Assembly: GCF_028737205.1 (NCBI RefSeq)
Contig: NZ_JAQZAL010000010.1
Location: forward strand, 62,001-126,000
Source: Actinomycetospora lutea
GTDB lineage: Bacteria; Actinomycetota; Actinomycetes; Mycobacteriales; Pseudonocardiaceae
Length of the DNA: 64,000 bases
Direction of reading: 5' to 3'
Part shown: piece after piece, positions 21,937 to 30,909 of the stretch
How the letters are laid out: each line of letters starts with the position of its first letter
Position numbering within the stretch: the first letter of the stretch is position 1
Notes under the pieces: model-generated
What the model was told of the DNA's origin: nothing
Database searches by the model: none
Seen by the model: only the letters and a program-made list of their open reading frames with translations
Program-made: the position numbers and the translations under genes

Positions 21937-22776
21937 ATGGTCGAGGCGGTCGCTCGCGTGGCGTCCCTGACGGTCTTCCCGATCAAGGGCTGCGCGGGGA
22001 TGGCGGTGGAGCGCCGCGAGGTCACGACGACCGGGCTCGCGGGCGACCGACAGTTCATGGTCGTCGCGCCCGACGGGCGCTTCAAGACGCAGCGGCGGCA
22101 TCCGCTCCTGGCCACGGTGCGGCCGCACCTCGACGGCTCCCGCCTCGCGCTGTCGGCGGACGACCGGGGCCCCTGCACCCTCGACGTGCTCGACGACGGC
22201 CCGCGCCGGCAGGTGGAGATCTTCAGCAAGTCGCACCCGGCCGTCGATCAGGGCGAGGACGCCGCCGGGTGGCTCTCCGAGGTGCTCCGCGTCGAGAGCC
22301 GGCTCGTCGGCGTGACACCCGAGCACCACCGCGCCACCGACGGCCTCGTGCCCGGCCTGTCCGGCTGGGCCGACAGCGGCTCACTGCTGCTGCTCTCCCG
22401 CGCCGCCGCCGACGACCTCTCAGACCGTGCCGCCGAACGCACCGGCGAGCCGATCCCCCTTGAACGCTTCCGCGCCAACGTCGTGCTCTCCGGCTGCGAC
22501 GCCCACGCCGAGGACGAGCTCGACCGCGTCACCCTCGGCACCGCCGGCCTCGCGTTCTCCAAGCGCGCGGTGCGCTGTGCCGTCGTCACCGTCGACCAGC
22601 GGACCGGCGCGCGCGTCGGCCCCGAACCGCTGGAGACCCTCGCGACCTACCGCCTCACCGACAACGGCATCGTGTTCGGCGCGAAGTACACGGTCTTGAC
22701 GCCAGGCGTAGTCGCGCTCGGCGACGAGCTGTCTGTGGGGCCGGCCGAGGTCCGGGTTGTCTGCGACCGCTCCTGA
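21937..22776 (+). CDS. MOSC-domain protein (YcbX/mARC-like)
   Basis: A 279-residue molybdenum-cofactor sulfurase-C-terminal (MOSC) protein. The N-terminal MOSC_N beta barrel contains VFPIKGCAGMAV and GLAGDRQFMVVAPDG. The MOSC domain contains FRANVVLSGCDAHAEDEL, with the cysteine expected to hold the cofactor in KRAVRCAVVTVDQRTGARVG. Members of this branch bind Moco and reduce N-hydroxylated compounds together with a flavin/ferredoxin partner. The length is normal. It is the last gene with ordinary codon use before the composition shift near 22790. Confidence 0.9.
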   Translation: MVEAVARVASLTVFPIKGCAGMAVERREVTTTGLAGDRQFMVVAPDGRFKTQRRHPLLATVRPHLDGSRLALSADDRGPCTLDVLDDGPRRQVEIFSKSHPAVDQGEDAAGWLSEVLRVESRLVGVTPEHHRATDGLVPGLSGWADSGSLLLLSRAAADDLSDRAAERTGEPIPLERFRANVVLSGCDAHAEDELDRVTLGTAGLAFSKRAVRCAVVTVDQRTGARVGPEPLETLATYRLTDNGIVFGAKYTVLTPGVVALGDELSVGPAEVRVVCDRS

Positions 22777-23047
22777 CCGCCCTGCTCCCGGCACAGCTTC
22801 GACCGGTGGCTCCCCCTCTGGCCAGCGCCAAGCGTTGAGCCAGCCGACGCACATGCACACGCTTGGAGATTATGCACATGCACCACCTGAAGTCGCACCC
22901 CGAAACAGTCACGGCTCACCCGTAAGGCACGATCAGATCCACAGTCAACGGAGCGGGACTGGAGGGTCGACGCGCACCGCATCCATTCCTTCGGACACAT
23001 CGAGCATCGCGCAAGACCTCGCAGCCACACCTGGAGGCCTGATCGTC
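22777..23047. other. Left edge of the defence island, no gene recognised
   Basis: These 271 bases separate the MOSC gene from the first island gene. Base composition falls here relative to the flanking chromosome, with A/T-containing codons and words such as GAGATTATGCACATG. The frame of the downstream ATPase is open back through this stretch, so a longer N-terminus from ATG 22853 cannot be excluded. No integrase, att-like repeat or tRNA is seen. Confidence 0.5.
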
Positions 23048-24607
23048 TTGTCTCAAGCGCCCACAGCTCCTGAGACCGTCTCAGTTCGACCGGGAGTCGG
23101 CATGCTCGCCCTCTTCCCTTCCATGAAGTACAAGCCGTGGTACGCGCTCGGCGAGCTCGTGGACAACGCCATCCAGAGCTACGTCGAGAACCGCGACCGA
23201 CTTCGGGCCATCTACGGCGACTATCGACTGCAGATCGACATCGAGGTCGGGCCCGACTCCATCAAGGTCTCGGACAATGCCGCTGGCATCCCGGCGACCG
23301 AGCTCGCGCGAGCGCTAACCCCCGCACAACCGCCCCCCAACTCATCGGGCCTGTCCCAATTCGGAATCGGAATGAAGAGCGCTGCCTGCTGGTACGCCCG
23401 CAGGTTCAGCGTCACGACGTCCACCTACGGCGAGAACGAGTCGAGGCGGGTTCTCGTCGATATCCCGAGAATTCTCGAGACCAAGACCGATGAAGTCGGT
23501 GTCGAGCGACACTACTGCGACCCACCGGTGCACGGCACAACCGTGCTGCTTGAACATCTGAACCAGCCGTCCCCTACGGGCCGGACTCTCGGGAAGATCC
23601 GCAGCTACCTTCGAAGCATGTATCGCGTATTCCTGCGATCGGGCGAACTTCAGTTAACCGTCGCGAACGTGCAGCTGGAGTATGTCGAACCGAAGGTGCT
23701 CGTATCTCCGCGATGGGATCAACGTCGCGGCCAAGAACTCCGCTGGGCGAAGAACATCGACGTCTTTCTCCCTGACTCGGGGCGGCGGATTCGAGGATGG
23801 GTCGGCATTCGCGAGAAGGGGTCCACATCAGAGGCCGGCCTAGCGCTTCTCTACCGAGGCAAGGTCGTCGTAGGGGCCGGGAGCATGGCGCAGGACGCCG
23901 AGGGCAGTTACCGCCCGGAGGAAGTCTTTGGAAGGACCAACTCCTTCGCCTACCAGCGAATCTTCGGTGAGCTCGACGTCTCGGAGCTCAACGTTGCTTA
24001 CTCCAAGGACGAACTCATCTGGGGTGGCGAGGAGGACGAGTTCCTCAGGATCCTGCGCCACGAACTCGACTCCGAGCCTCTTCCGCTCCTCAAGATGGCC
24101 AACGGCTACCGCAAGTCCGAGCACGGCCAAGACGTCGATGTGGTCAATGAGGTCCGAAAGGCGGTGCAGGCGACAGCCGCAGCTGCGGCTGCGGGCTTCG
24201 TTGCCCAGAACGGTCGCACCGGATCGCCAGCTCCCACTCCGCAGCCACCGCCTCGGGCCGCGGACCACGTCGCTACACCGCCGATCTCGGTTGGACTGGC
24301 CATTCCGGCTGCCTTCGGCGACGACATCAGACTCGAGCTGGTGGACGAGAGCTTTGATGCGAAGCTCCTGAAGATCAAGCGGGCAGGCAGCGTCGAGACG
24401 ATTCAGATCAACAGAGCTGCGCCCTTCATGAACTCCTTTGCCAACTTCCCAAGCATGGAGATCGAGCCAGTAATGAGGCTGGCACTGGCCGTAGGACTCT
24501 CCGAGATCGAAGTCAGGCGCGCAGGGGTTCCGCAGGCCGCCATGTTGCGCTCACGCCTGAACGAGCTCCTGCAGGGCCCTCTCGCTCATCGAACGGTGGA
24601 GAATTAA
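23048..24607 (+). CDS. MORC/MutL-like GHKL ATPase of a Z1-linked defence system
   Basis: A 519-residue protein with a Bergerat-fold ATPase: N-box ELVDNAIQS at residues ~36-44, the Mg/ATP loop VSDNAAGIP (~75-82), and the lid GLSQFGIGMKSA (~101-112). An S5-like region follows with a lysine-containing GRTNSFAYQRIFGELDVSEL stretch. A Pro/Ala-rich linker (~410-440) joins a C-terminal domain. This is the prokaryotic MORC/MutL type known to sit beside Z1 helicases in restriction-linked islands; it probably clamps DNA. The start is uncertain: TTG 23048 has GGAGG ten bases upstream and gives the expected ~15 residues before the fold. It leads a four-gene operon. Confidence 0.85.
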   Translation: MSQAPTAPETVSVRPGVGMLALFPSMKYKPWYALGELVDNAIQSYVENRDRLRAIYGDYRLQIDIEVGPDSIKVSDNAAGIPATELARALTPAQPPPNSSGLSQFGIGMKSAACWYARRFSVTTSTYGENESRRVLVDIPRILETKTDEVGVERHYCDPPVHGTTVLLEHLNQPSPTGRTLGKIRSYLRSMYRVFLRSGELQLTVANVQLEYVEPKVLVSPRWDQRRGQELRWAKNIDVFLPDSGRRIRGWVGIREKGSTSEAGLALLYRGKVVVGAGSMAQDAEGSYRPEEVFGRTNSFAYQRIFGELDVSELNVAYSKDELIWGGEEDEFLRILRHELDSEPLPLLKMANGYRKSEHGQDVDVVNEVRKAVQATAAAAAAGFVAQNGRTGSPAPTPQPPPRAADHVATPPISVGLAIPAAFGDDIRLELVDESFDAKLLKIKRAGSVETIQINRAAPFMNSFANFPSMEIEPVMRLALAVGLSEIEVRRAGVPQAAMLRSRLNELLQGPLAHRTVEN

Positions 24608-24608
24608 A

Positions 24609-26843
24609 TTGCGCGACATGGTCAGCGCCTCTGTGATCAACGAGCCCAGCGACGTTCCGCTCTACATCGGCGCCAATGCAGACCGTCTCCTAACCGGAGT
24701 TCCGCCAACTGCCCGCCCCGGAATACAGGAGGAGTCTCTCCGAGTGTTGACCCGGGCTTCGGTCACCGGGAACACCGAAAACCCGCGGGCGTCAGCACAG
24801 TTGGTGGTCGGCGAGGTCCAGAGCGGGAAGACGCTATCGTTCACTACAGTCATGGCGCTGGCCCGCGATAATGGATACCCGCTCCTCGTCGTCATCGCCG
24901 GCACCAAGACGAACCTCCTTCAGCAGACAGAGCGGCGGCTTCGAAACGATCTCCGCATGTCGGGCGACGGTGGTCCGAATCCGTGGCGGACCTGGACAAA
25001 CCCGAGCGCGGCAGACGCAGACAAGCTCCACCAGCTTCTGTCCGCATGGTCAGATCCGCATGTCCCGGACCAGTTTAAACAGACTGCTGTCATATTCGTT
25101 CTGAAGCATTCTGGTCGTGTCGAGACGGTGGCAGACCTGCTCCACTCCGTCTTCGGTGAGCGGCTCGCCGCTCCCGTCAAGGCGCTGGTAATCGATGACG
25201 AGGCAGATCAAGCGAGTCTCAACCTCAAGGCTGGAAAGGACGGAGAGAGTTCCGTCTATGCCGCAATTACCCACCTGCGCGCCAACTTGAGCAACCACAC
25301 CTATCTCATGTACACAGCCACCCCGCAGGCGCCGCTGTTGGTCTCGATCGAGGACGCGCTCGCGCCCGACAAGGTAACGGTTCTGACGGCAGGCGGGGAT
25401 TACGTCGGCAGCAAGGAACTCTTCAGCGCGTCCCGGGAGAAGTACCTACGGGAGATCACATCAGGAGAGCTCGAGACCGCCCTCGACCCTGAGTCCGACG
25501 CTCCACCGCGATCGCTCCTCGATGCACTCGCCTTCTGGACGTTGGCCCTCGTTCTCGCCCACGAGAGGGGCAAACCGCGGCCGCTGACGATGCTCGTCCA
25601 CCCTGCTTCAGCCCAAGATCTGCACACCAAGTACGACGGGTGGGTTCGGGGCATCCTTGACGGCTGGCGGGCGGTCCTCAAGGACCGAGACGACGTCGCG
25701 TACCACGACCTGGTCGCGGACGTTTTCGAGGCAGCCTACGAGGATCTGAGACGGACGGTGCCGGAGCTGCCCGACGTCAACGAGTCGCCGCAGAGGTTGA
25801 GTGACATGCTCGCGGTCGCCCGCTACTACTTGAACCAGATAGAGCAGCGTGTCGTCAATAGCTCGACGCAGGCGGAGATTCCCGAAGAGGAGTGGCTACA
25901 ATACCCGGGCTGGATCGTGATTGGAGGCAACAAGCTCGACCGAGGCTTCACGGTACAAAATTTGGGCGTTACCTACATGCCCAGGGGCAAGGGCGTCGGG
26001 AACGTTGACACCATCCAGCAGCGTGGTCGATTCTTCGGCTACAAGATGCCGTATCTTGACTTGCTCCGCGGATGGTTCTCTGCTGAAGTCGCACAAGCCT
26101 TCACCGCTTACGTGGAACACGAGAAGACCATGCAGTCCGAGCTGCGCAAGGTAGACGCGAGCGACAGTTCACTTAAGGAATGGCGCCGGAAGTTCCTCCT
26201 GGCTCCTGAACTCAAGCTCACTCGCCGCCAGGTCATGACGCTGCCAACCGTCAGCTCGGTGGTTCGACAAGGCTGGGTCTTTCGGCAAGCAGAGCTCTTT
26301 GAACCCGGCTTGAGCGAAAAGAACTCTGAGATCGTCGCTGCCATTCGCGAGACGGTGAAGCAGAGAGGACAACGTCATCCAGCCGACCTGCGGTCGGGAG
26401 ACAGAGTCCATCACATCGCGTCATGTACCTACGAAGAGTTGACGAGCTACATCTACCAATGGGCATGCTCGGCCACCGAACGCGAGGACCTGGACAAGGT
26501 ACTGTTCCTGCTCGCCAACATCCTCGACGAAGAGCTTGATGTTCCACCAGTAGACGTGATCGTCATGGATAACTACCAGAAGCGTGATCGGCGTGCCATC
26601 GAGCCCCGAGGTACGCGACGGATGGCGCCAGCGCGCATCAACAATCTCTTCCAGGGCCGTGGCTCCACCAGCAACTATCAGGGCGACCAGGCCTTCCTCT
26701 CTGACAGCGCCATCACTCTACAACTTCACGCGGTGCGTCCGTTGCGAGAGGGAGCTGATGAATGCGAACCCCTCGTCCCGGCGCTTGCAATGGCACTTCC
26801 TCTAAGCTCGGAGCGACGAATCGTCTGGGAGACATCCGAGTGA
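24609..26843 (+). CDS. Z1-domain superfamily 2 helicase/ATPase
   Basis: A 744-residue protein with all Z1 landmarks: Walker A variant GEVQSGKT (68-75), DEAD box in LVIDDEADQAS (197-200), motif III YTATPQA (~235), and the motif V/VI block LDRGFTV (443-449) with DTIQQRGRFFGYK (~467). Z1 proteins are SF2 translocases found in restriction-type islands. The start is TTG 24609, seven bases after GGTGGAG; ATG 24618 is the alternative but poorly spaced. It begins one base after the ATPase stop and overlaps the next gene (GTGA), so the three should be made together and probably act as one complex on invading DNA. Confidence 0.93.
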   Translation: MRDMVSASVINEPSDVPLYIGANADRLLTGVPPTARPGIQEESLRVLTRASVTGNTENPRASAQLVVGEVQSGKTLSFTTVMALARDNGYPLLVVIAGTKTNLLQQTERRLRNDLRMSGDGGPNPWRTWTNPSAADADKLHQLLSAWSDPHVPDQFKQTAVIFVLKHSGRVETVADLLHSVFGERLAAPVKALVIDDEADQASLNLKAGKDGESSVYAAITHLRANLSNHTYLMYTATPQAPLLVSIEDALAPDKVTVLTAGGDYVGSKELFSASREKYLREITSGELETALDPESDAPPRSLLDALAFWTLALVLAHERGKPRPLTMLVHPASAQDLHTKYDGWVRGILDGWRAVLKDRDDVAYHDLVADVFEAAYEDLRRTVPELPDVNESPQRLSDMLAVARYYLNQIEQRVVNSSTQAEIPEEEWLQYPGWIVIGGNKLDRGFTVQNLGVTYMPRGKGVGNVDTIQQRGRFFGYKMPYLDLLRGWFSAEVAQAFTAYVEHEKTMQSELRKVDASDSSLKEWRRKFLLAPELKLTRRQVMTLPTVSSVVRQGWVFRQAELFEPGLSEKNSEIVAAIRETVKQRGQRHPADLRSGDRVHHIASCTYEELTSYIYQWACSATEREDLDKVLFLLANILDEELDVPPVDVIVMDNYQKRDRRAIEPRGTRRMAPARINNLFQGRGSTSNYQGDQAFLSDSAITLQLHAVRPLREGADECEPLVPALAMALPLSSERRIVWETSE

Positions 26844-27826
26844 TCGACGAAGCCCTGCTACGGTCAGCGTTGAAGGACGCGCGCCAGCTGCAGACCCACT
26901 CCAGCAGTTCAGGAACAGTTGCCTTCACCCTCTCGCCCGAGCTGGGGACGAGCAGCTGTCGAATAGGCCTCAACTCAGACGGCCACATCGTGCTCCTGGT
27001 TCCAGCGCAGCAGACACACGGAGTGAAGCTCGCCAGGTTCCACTATATGCCCGCCGCTCCGATCAGTTTTCAGGACCTAGCCCATGGATCGTGGAGCGGC
27101 TCATACGGCTTCGTCGCGTGTGATGTCGAGAACGCAGCGCAGGAGCGGGTACTGCTCGGCATCTTTGTCCAGATCGTCAATGCTCTCGACTCGGGGCAGG
27201 ATGCCAAGATCGTCACTGGATACGTTGGAGCGGTAAGGGCGCTATTTTCTGCTCTCGAGCGACCGTCGCAACGAGCAGAGCTCGGGCTCTGGGGCGAGCT
27301 CTTCGTCATCGCTCGATCGCGCGAGCCGCTCACGCTCGCAAGCGCTTGGGTCGACGATGCCAACAGTGTCTTCGACTTCGCGACCTCCGGCCACAGGCTC
27401 GAGGTCAAGACGACCACGGGCGCATGGCGTCAGCACATCTTCTCGATCACGCAGCTCGAGCAGGCACAAACCGCCGACACCGCCGTAGTGTCCGTCATGA
27501 CGACCGAAGTTGAGTCCGGCACCAGCGTGCCCGAACTTCTCATGAAGTCGCAGAACAGGCTCAGGCACAACCCAGAGCTTCAGCACGCAATGCTCGAGAA
27601 GACCGTTCGCATTGCCGGCAGCTCGCTTGGCAATCCCCGCCGCTGGGACGAGGACCAAGCGATGAGCACGGCGCGTGTCCTGGCCTTCGACAGCATCCCA
27701 CGTCCCGGTCTCGAGCCCGGCATCATCGACTTGAGCTGGACCGCTCGGCTTGCCACAAAAATGGAGTCAGACGTCGTTACCGACAATCCGTTGGTGGCAG
27801 CCTTCCAGCTTGAGGCCGCGTCCTGA
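26840..27826 (+). CDS. PD-(D/E)XK-motif protein (DUF4420 type) of the Z1 system
   Basis: A 328-residue putative nuclease-fold protein. The core is ELGLWGELFVI (Glu ~153), then FDFATSGHRLEVKTTTG with Asp ~179, Glu ~188 and Lys ~190, matching the E...D...ExK pattern of the fold. The family almost always follows a Z1 gene. GTG 26840 overlaps the Z1 stop by four bases, with GGGAG eight bases upstream. It is preferred to an open extension inside the Z1 gene. It may be the DNA-cleaving subunit, but nuclease activity is inferred from the motif only. Confidence 0.85.
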   Translation: MIDEALLRSALKDARQLQTHSSSSGTVAFTLSPELGTSSCRIGLNSDGHIVLLVPAQQTHGVKLARFHYMPAAPISFQDLAHGSWSGSYGFVACDVENAAQERVLLGIFVQIVNALDSGQDAKIVTGYVGAVRALFSALERPSQRAELGLWGELFVIARSREPLTLASAWVDDANSVFDFATSGHRLEVKTTTGAWRQHIFSITQLEQAQTADTAVVSVMTTEVESGTSVPELLMKSQNRLRHNPELQHAMLEKTVRIAGSSLGNPRRWDEDQAMSTARVLAFDSIPRPGLEPGIIDLSWTARLATKMESDVVTDNPLVAAFQLEAAS

Positions 27827-28074
27827 TGGCGGTCGTGCGCAGCTTCGAGAACGTCGAGAGCTCGGGCCGGGTTCACCCGACAGTCGTTGACTGCGGTTTC
27901 TCTGTCTTCGTCAGCGACGGTGCGCCCTACCTCCAGCTTCAAACGTACGGGTCCGAGAACCGCGTCAGCGACAGAAAAGTCAGTCAAACTATTCAGTTAG
28001 ACAGACGGGCGATGCTAACCCTTCTCGGGATCTTGGCGAGCACACTTGCCGCACAGGACGGCACGCCTACGTAG
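27826..28074 (+). CDS. 82-residue conserved Z1-island protein
   Basis: A small protein whose ATG overlaps the previous stop (TGATG), so it belongs to the ATPase-Z1-nuclease operon. The middle YLQLQTYGSENRVSDRKVSQ followed by TIQLDRRAMLTLLGIL is a pattern I associate with short proteins in restriction-type islands, often mislabelled as methionyl-tRNA formyltransferase. No enzyme motif is visible. A structural or specificity role in the complex is a guess. The gene ends 94 bases before the convergent Vsr gene. Confidence 0.75.
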   Translation: MAVVRSFENVESSGRVHPTVVDCGFSVFVSDGAPYLQLQTYGSENRVSDRKVSQTIQLDRRAMLTLLGILASTLAAQDGTPT

Positions 28075-28168
28075 GCACTCCTCAGCGCTCGCTCGTCGAG
28101 GACCTGGCTAGCGGGCCGAGTGCCGCTAGTGGCTGCGGCCAGTCGTTGAGGCCGGTGCCGCCCACCAT

Positions 28169-28618
28169 TCAGGTGGGCCGGCGCTCGAGCACCGCACACT
28201 GGATGCGTTGGGCAGCCTCCTCTGGGTCCTCGTGCTCCCAGATGCGCACGACCAGCCAACCGACCTCCTCGAGACGTCGGTCCGTGTCGGTGTCGCGCTC
28301 GCAGTTGCGGGCAATCTTCGGTGCCCAGTAGTCGGTGTTGGTTCGTGGGATGTTGCCGTGCAAAGGACACCCGTGCCAATAGCAACCGTCGATCATGACC
28401 GCCACTCGCGAGCTCGGGAACAGCAGGTCAGCTCGTCGGCGAGGCATGCCGGGCAGCGGATGGTCGACCCGGTAACGGAAGCCACGCGAGTGGAGGAGGC
28501 CTCGAATCTTCAGTTCAGGCGCAGTACCCCTCCGCCGCTGCGCGCTCATCCGCTGCCGCCGTTGCGGGGAAGTCTCGGGAAAGACTCTCCGCCCTGCTCC
28601 GTCCGCGTCGCCGGCCAT
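28169..28618 (-). CDS. vsr: Vsr-type (very-short-patch) DNA endonuclease
   Basis: A 149-residue protein of normal Vsr length. It has RMSAQRRRGTAPELKIRGLL, the metal-binding Asp in RRRADLLFPSSRVAVMIDG, then CYWHGCPLHG with the zinc/active-site Cys and His, and a C-terminal GWLVVRIWEHE. Vsr nicks beside T:G mismatches formed by deamination of 5-methylcytosine made by a partner Dcm enzyme. In Z1 islands, Vsr-fold proteins may instead act as restriction nucleases. ATG 28618 lies ten bases after the methylase stop on the same strand, so the two are probably co-transcribed. An open frame extending further upstream is methylase coding sequence. Confidence 0.92.
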   Translation of the reverse strand: MAGDADGAGRRVFPETSPQRRQRMSAQRRRGTAPELKIRGLLHSRGFRYRVDHPLPGMPRRRADLLFPSSRVAVMIDGCYWHGCPLHGNIPRTNTDYWAPKIARNCERDTDTDRRLEEVGWLVVRIWEHEDPEEAAQRIQCAVLERRPT

Positions 28619-28628
28619 CTCGACCTGC

Positions 28629-29723
28629 TTAGTTGATAGCGGCTGCGGCCATGAGGGCAACTTGTCGGCCGAGCTCTGGAGGGACGGAGTTACCCAGCTG
28701 AGCCTGGGCACTCCGTCTCGAGCCGACGAGTTCAAAGTCGTCGGGGAAGGTGAAGAGCCGTTTCACCTCTGCGAGACGAAGCCGTCGGTTGTCCCAGTGG
28801 AAAGGCCCTACATTTGGACCAGGCTGAGCCTGAATGGTGGGACTGGGCTTGGCCGGATCGAGCTTTAATAGAAAGCTCCAATATCGACTGCGCCAGCGGA
28901 ATAGCGGCTCAGGATAATCTCTCTCGGCGGTGTAGTGCAGATAGTTCTTCCCCGGTGGGATACCAGGAAGGAGATGCGCGAATTGCCCTCCAACTACCTC
29001 CTCGGGTTCCGGATCTGAGACCAGTCCCTCGAGTGCGGCGCCGGCGCTGATGTGCGCGCGGTCAGAGCTGCCTGTAGTCCGACGTTCCCAGACTCCGCCG
29101 TGGGTCGGCCGCAGAGGATCGGGTAGGTCGGTACCTTTAGGTACGCCGACGACGAAGAGTCGCGGGCGAGCTTGTGGAACACCGTAATCTGCTGCATTGA
29201 GGACCATGTAGCGGCAGTGGTATCCGGCTTGCTCGATCTCGCGGCGCAGTCGCTCGTACGATGGTCGCGATGCCTTGTTATTATACGTAAGAGCGTAGAC
29301 ATTCTCCAGAATGAAGCTTCGAGGGCGCGCTTCACGCAGGACCCTCGTGTAACTCTGCAGCAGGCTTGCCGTCGGATCGAGTCCGTCGCGCTTCCAGTCC
29401 AACCAGAAGCCGGACTTCGAGAACGGGGTGCAAGGCGGGCCCCCAATAAGGAGCTCTGGCGTCGAGGAACCAGTCAGCCCAGCCGCCGCAAGAATGTCGG
29501 CCGTCGGTACATCAAGAATGTCCTTCCGGATGACGGGGCTGACAAGTGTCGGGAAGTTCTTCTCCAAAGTCGCTGCCGCATCGGGAGCGCGCTCGACAGC
29601 CGCCGCCACTTGGAAGCCCGCCTGTTCGGCGCCCAAGTCGAGTCCGCCCGCGCCCGAGAACAGAGAGATCGCGACGCCCGCCTGCCCTGACATGAGGAGC
29701 AGCATGCCACGGGCGGCCGACAC
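28629..29723 (-). CDS. DNA (cytosine-5) methyltransferase
   Basis: A ~364-residue C5-cytosine methylase with motifs in canonical order: I (SLFSGAGGLDLG), IV with the catalytic Cys ~98 (GGPPCTPFSKSG), VI (ENVYAL), VIII (QARPRLFVVG), a target-recognition region from about 200 to 310, and IX/X (LGNSVPPELG). It should methylate a short site to mark self DNA. The start is unclear: GTG 29723, ATG 29705 and ATG 29693 are in frame and none has a good ribosome site. It is transcribed toward the Z1 operon with Vsr downstream. The recognition site cannot be read from sequence alone. Confidence 0.92.
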   Translation of the reverse strand: MSAARGMLLLMSGQAGVAISLFSGAGGLDLGAEQAGFQVAAAVERAPDAAATLEKNFPTLVSPVIRKDILDVPTADILAAAGLTGSSTPELLIGGPPCTPFSKSGFWLDWKRDGLDPTASLLQSYTRVLREARPRSFILENVYALTYNNKASRPSYERLRREIEQAGYHCRYMVLNAADYGVPQARPRLFVVGVPKGTDLPDPLRPTHGGVWERRTTGSSDRAHISAGAALEGLVSDPEPEEVVGGQFAHLLPGIPPGKNYLHYTAERDYPEPLFRWRSRYWSFLLKLDPAKPSPTIQAQPGPNVGPFHWDNRRLRLAEVKRLFTFPDDFELVGSRRSAQAQLGNSVPPELGRQVALMAAAAIN

Positions 29724-29958
29724 GCCCTGACAGCTGGCGTCGCTGCGCGGACACTTTAACCAGAGGCCCTAGTAGGCGCGCGGGCCCTCGCCCCGGTACC
29801 GCTACCTCTTCCGAGGTCGTCGGCCGCGGCAAGGAGAGTGGCCGCCGTCTCGCCAGGACGAGATCGTGCCGTGGTGGAGGTCCCCTTCAATGGGTGGCCG
29901 CTGCATACCGGCGGCCGGACGTAAGGTAGGCATTCCCTGTCTCGAGGAGGGGGAGCGC

Positions 29959-30909
29959 GTGACTGTGGAGCCCTACGGCATGACGCCAGATGACGAGCGG
30001 CACTGGCGGACCGTTCAGGAGTGGAAGGCCAAGAAGCTCAACTCGAGCACGCGCGAGATAGTCCCTGCGAAGTGGCGAGAGAAGGCCTCAAAGGCGTCCA
30101 GCAAGGCTTGTGAGCAGTTGGGCGCCGCCGCATCGAAGGTCCCGAACGCCGAGGAAGCACGGCCACGCCGTCGAGTCGATCACCGACGTCCGCAAGCTCG
30201 AGATTGCCGACATGCACAAGGCTAAGCCACGACTCGACATCGCCTACTCGCGGGCTCCGCCGCGCAGGGCGCGGGCACCGGTCTTGTGGCCTCGGGCGGC
30301 ACAATCCTCGCGGCCGGCGGAGCAGTCGGCTCAGGCGGCGTCGCTGCCGCACCCGGCGTGGGGACCGTCGTCGGCGCTATGGCGGCGGACGCAGCGGCGA
30401 GCATCGTGACCAGCAATCGCGCCGTCGCTCACATCGCCGCCTACTACGGCTACGACATCGACGACCCGGCAGAGCGCATCTACGCCCTCGGCGTGCTCAA
30501 CATGGGGCTGGCCGAAGACGCGGGCAAGATCGTCGCGTACCGCGAGCTGAACAATGTCGTGCAGGCGCTGGCACGTCGCCAGACCTGGAAGCAGCTCAGC
30601 GGCAACCAGGTGACCAGGGTCGTGAGCGCGGTCTACAAGGCGCTTGGCATGCGCCTGACGCAGCGGAAGCTGGCGCAGGCGGTACCCGTCGTGGGGGTCG
30701 TCATCGGGGCGGGCCTCAACGCCCGAGCACTCTCTCGCGTGGTCGACGAGGCCGAGCACCTATACATGGAGCGCTTCCTCCGCGACAAGTACGGGATCCC
30801 CCTCGAGGCCGAGGAACTACCGGAAGCCGGCGCTCTTGTACAGGTCATCGAGGCAGAGATCGTCGAGCGCGGCGACGACGAAGACCTGGACCACACGGGA
30901 ACGGGCTGA
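29959..30909 (+). pseudogene. EcsC-family protein gene broken by two frameshifts
   Basis: Three reading frames together spell a homologue of the intact EcsC protein at 56344. The N-terminal part (DERHWRTVQEWKAKKL) runs from a GTG at 29959 with GAGGAGGGGGAG upstream. The frame shifts near 30160 to give HAVESITDVRKLEIADMHKA, and shifts back near 30250 to AGSAAQGAGTGLVASGG and the long C-terminal part. The original frame stops at 30225, so an intact protein cannot be made as written. EcsC proteins are membrane-associated with Gly/Ala-rich hydrophobic segments and an unclear role. Either a decayed gene or two base errors. Confidence 0.75.

Follow-up and report, generated by a model that had tools for sequence, protein, structure and literature searches.

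Does the six-gene block at 22732..29947 of a 64,000-nucleotide stretch of Actinomycetospora lutea DNA (contig NZ_JAQZAL010000010.1, positions 62,001 to 126,000; the window hereafter) encode a defence system, and is this system of a known kind? Sequence comparisons make it moderately likely that the block is an ATP-dependent 5-methylcytosine restriction-modification system, which would mark its own DNA and attack unmarked DNA. The features of the locus are as follows:

22732..29947, no strand: whole acquired island of six genes, delimited by synteny breaks and G+C content
23048..24607, + strand: MORC-like GHKL ATPase, frame open from 22757
24609..26843, + strand: helicase, the second gene of the operon, previously described as a Z1 helicase
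26840..27826, + strand: DUF4420 PD-(D/E)XK nuclease, frame open from 26762, assigned by Pfam and alignment residues
27826..28074, + strand: protein of 82 residues, which with its homologues forms a small family lacking annotation
28075..28200, no strand: G+C-rich region with a hairpin, lying between the convergent units and running into the vsr gene at its 3' end
28169..28618, - strand: Vsr-type endonuclease, frame open to 28735, assigned by TIGR00632 and a match to a solved Vsr
28629..29723, - strand: C5-cytosine DNA methyltransferase of the Dcm type, assigned by Pfam and TIGR00675

A preliminary description of this DNA had reported the six genes, a 1-base gap and two overlaps (GTGA and TGATG), and all details checked were confirmed. 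The predicted Vsr protein scores 117 bits with TIGR00632 (cut-off 97.85) and matches the solved Vsr 1cw0 with an E value of 1.1e-16, and its E, D, H and aromatic residues, which we take to be the catalytic residues, align with those of the solved protein; judged by sequence, it thus both matches the curated Vsr profile and carries the catalytic residues. The methylase is recognized by Pfam (3e-50) and by TIGR00675 (155.5 bits, cut-off 100.65), and it differs from the methylase of the nearest relatives.

On the opposite strand, the ATPase was identified by its motifs and by a Pfam match to HATPase_c_3 (4.4e-12). Its AlphaFold2 model has a mean per-residue confidence (pLDDT) of 54.8, with values of 70-93 across most of the N-domain, and the best PDB matches of this domain are Hsp90-type GHKL domains, MORC2 ranking 25 and 37. 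At the position of the MORC S5-domain motif GhXhhpXXRhl the ATPase has GLALLYRGKVV, in which K replaces R and Y replaces the polar residue; the ATPases of three other loci (L003, L004, L005) have G..LFRRGR.I, in agreement with the motif. The third GHKL motif and helicase motif VI were read from alignments, over-strict motif expressions having matched 0/23 and 2/29 sequences. In a metagenome-assembled genome the MORC-like gene is spread over two overlapping frames (L002:8284-9971). The nuclease matches DUF4420 in Pfam (8.9e-18) and its E, D and E-V-K residues are invariant in the alignment (A5); its predicted structure (mean pLDDT 57.2) had no PDB match at E 0.001.

The 82-residue protein has homologues in other loci and no match in Pfam, PADLOC or NCBIfam, and relatives were detected neither in the scan of viral contigs nor in phage records. 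Some relatives lie beside or near GmrSD-type genes (L066:9923-12264, L076, L078). Its identity with MzaA was ruled out, as the MzaA model comprises 683 positions and does not match the small protein. The folding energy of the hairpin region is -66.9 kcal/mol on one strand and -66.5 kcal/mol on the other (raw energies without shuffle control), and the region is possibly a two-way terminator for the convergent units.

The G+C content of the island is 0.622 as compared to 0.745 in the remaining window, and the block is acquired foreign DNA in a high-GC actinobacterium. Congeners carry a PLD-helicase-DUF3427 gene at this site, so the island occupies the place where some relatives hold a gene resembling an enzyme against marked DNA. 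The right edge, based on two congeners, is less sharp; no direct repeats of at least 10 bases were found between the two flanking stretches compared. The EcsC-family gene directly to the right (30286-30909) probably belongs to the resident genome because similar DNA (75%) is present in congener G006. At the same site in congener G011 (L041:3495-9989), a cluster of TerB, a BrxC/D-like ATPase and a DEAD helicase-exonuclease adjoins the PLD-helicase-DUF3427 gene, and the site therefore looks like a defence hotspot. In congener G017 (L044:4324-7388) that gene is broken into two adjacent open reading frames, which may reflect decay of the copy or a fault in the assembly. Co-occurrence counts in 100 relatives (own genome included) do not support the idea that SauUSI-like genes and C5 methylases generally exclude each other: a C5 methylase (E 1e-10) occurs in 11 of the 21 DUF3427-positive genomes (one of these 21 lies below the curated cut-off) versus 52/79 DUF3427-negative genomes. 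Within the genus (n=18), DUF3427 is present in 9 genomes, a C5 methylase in 6 and both in 2.

Could the island instead serve methyl-directed repair, standing in for missing MutS and MutL? No MutS or MutL match was found in the genome (96.31% complete), as such a role would have it, but we consider a repair function very improbable and a predicted restriction-modification system the better description. Relationship to the antiviral MZA system (MzaABCDE), which the preliminary description mentioned, is distant: the window proteins score 19 bits with MzaB, 100.4 with MzaC and 36.2 with MzaD, far under the NCBIfam cut-offs of 850, 1500 and 420, respectively, and no MzaA occurs in the PADLOC match lists of the six proteins, the list for Dcm giving the best 25 of 59. 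Literature searches with the MZA names gave only unrelated papers among the matches listed. The statement that the AIPR partner (MzaE) is missing stands insofar as none was detected at 15000-40000 of the window with a query that missed one annotated AIPR (L091), whereas the idea that Vsr-Dcm replaces AIPR was ruled out, Vsr being present in 5/9 AIPR loci (8 recognized by profile, 1 by annotation).

The interpretation given in the preliminary description is supported in part; the distinct subtype that it suggested was not borne out. CglI and NgoAVII employ a PLD-B3 nuclease subunit, and the window instead encodes DUF4420 and a GHKL ATPase, with no PLD family member among the island proteins. 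In the Corynebacterium diphtheriae BH8 island the nuclease is EcoRII-like, Dcm is fused to an HTH domain and a MutT-like gene is also lost; the accessible portion of its report names neither Vsr nor MORC (PMC5379612). A further text describes Type II systems that carry elements termed 'V' (Vsr-like) and 'H' (Type II helicase domain); its accessible portion names neither a GHKL ATPase nor DUF4420 (PMC10855626). Among the closest known systems is the locus on Rhodovastum atsumiense plasmid RHOApd (L084). The third of the operon types that Iyer, Abhiman and Aravind described in 2008 combines MORC/paraMORC, a distinct superfamily II helicase and an E-D-ExK nuclease, often with a C5 methylase and Vsr; all five component families are shared with the window, including the DThhQXuRhFG-type helicase motif, as is a patchy, mobile distribution. 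The island looks like a member, probably functional, of a kind of system that is known but understudied; it is mostly ordinary and notable for a methylase unlike that of its nearest relatives, perhaps acquired by exchange, and for a possible swap at its insertion site.
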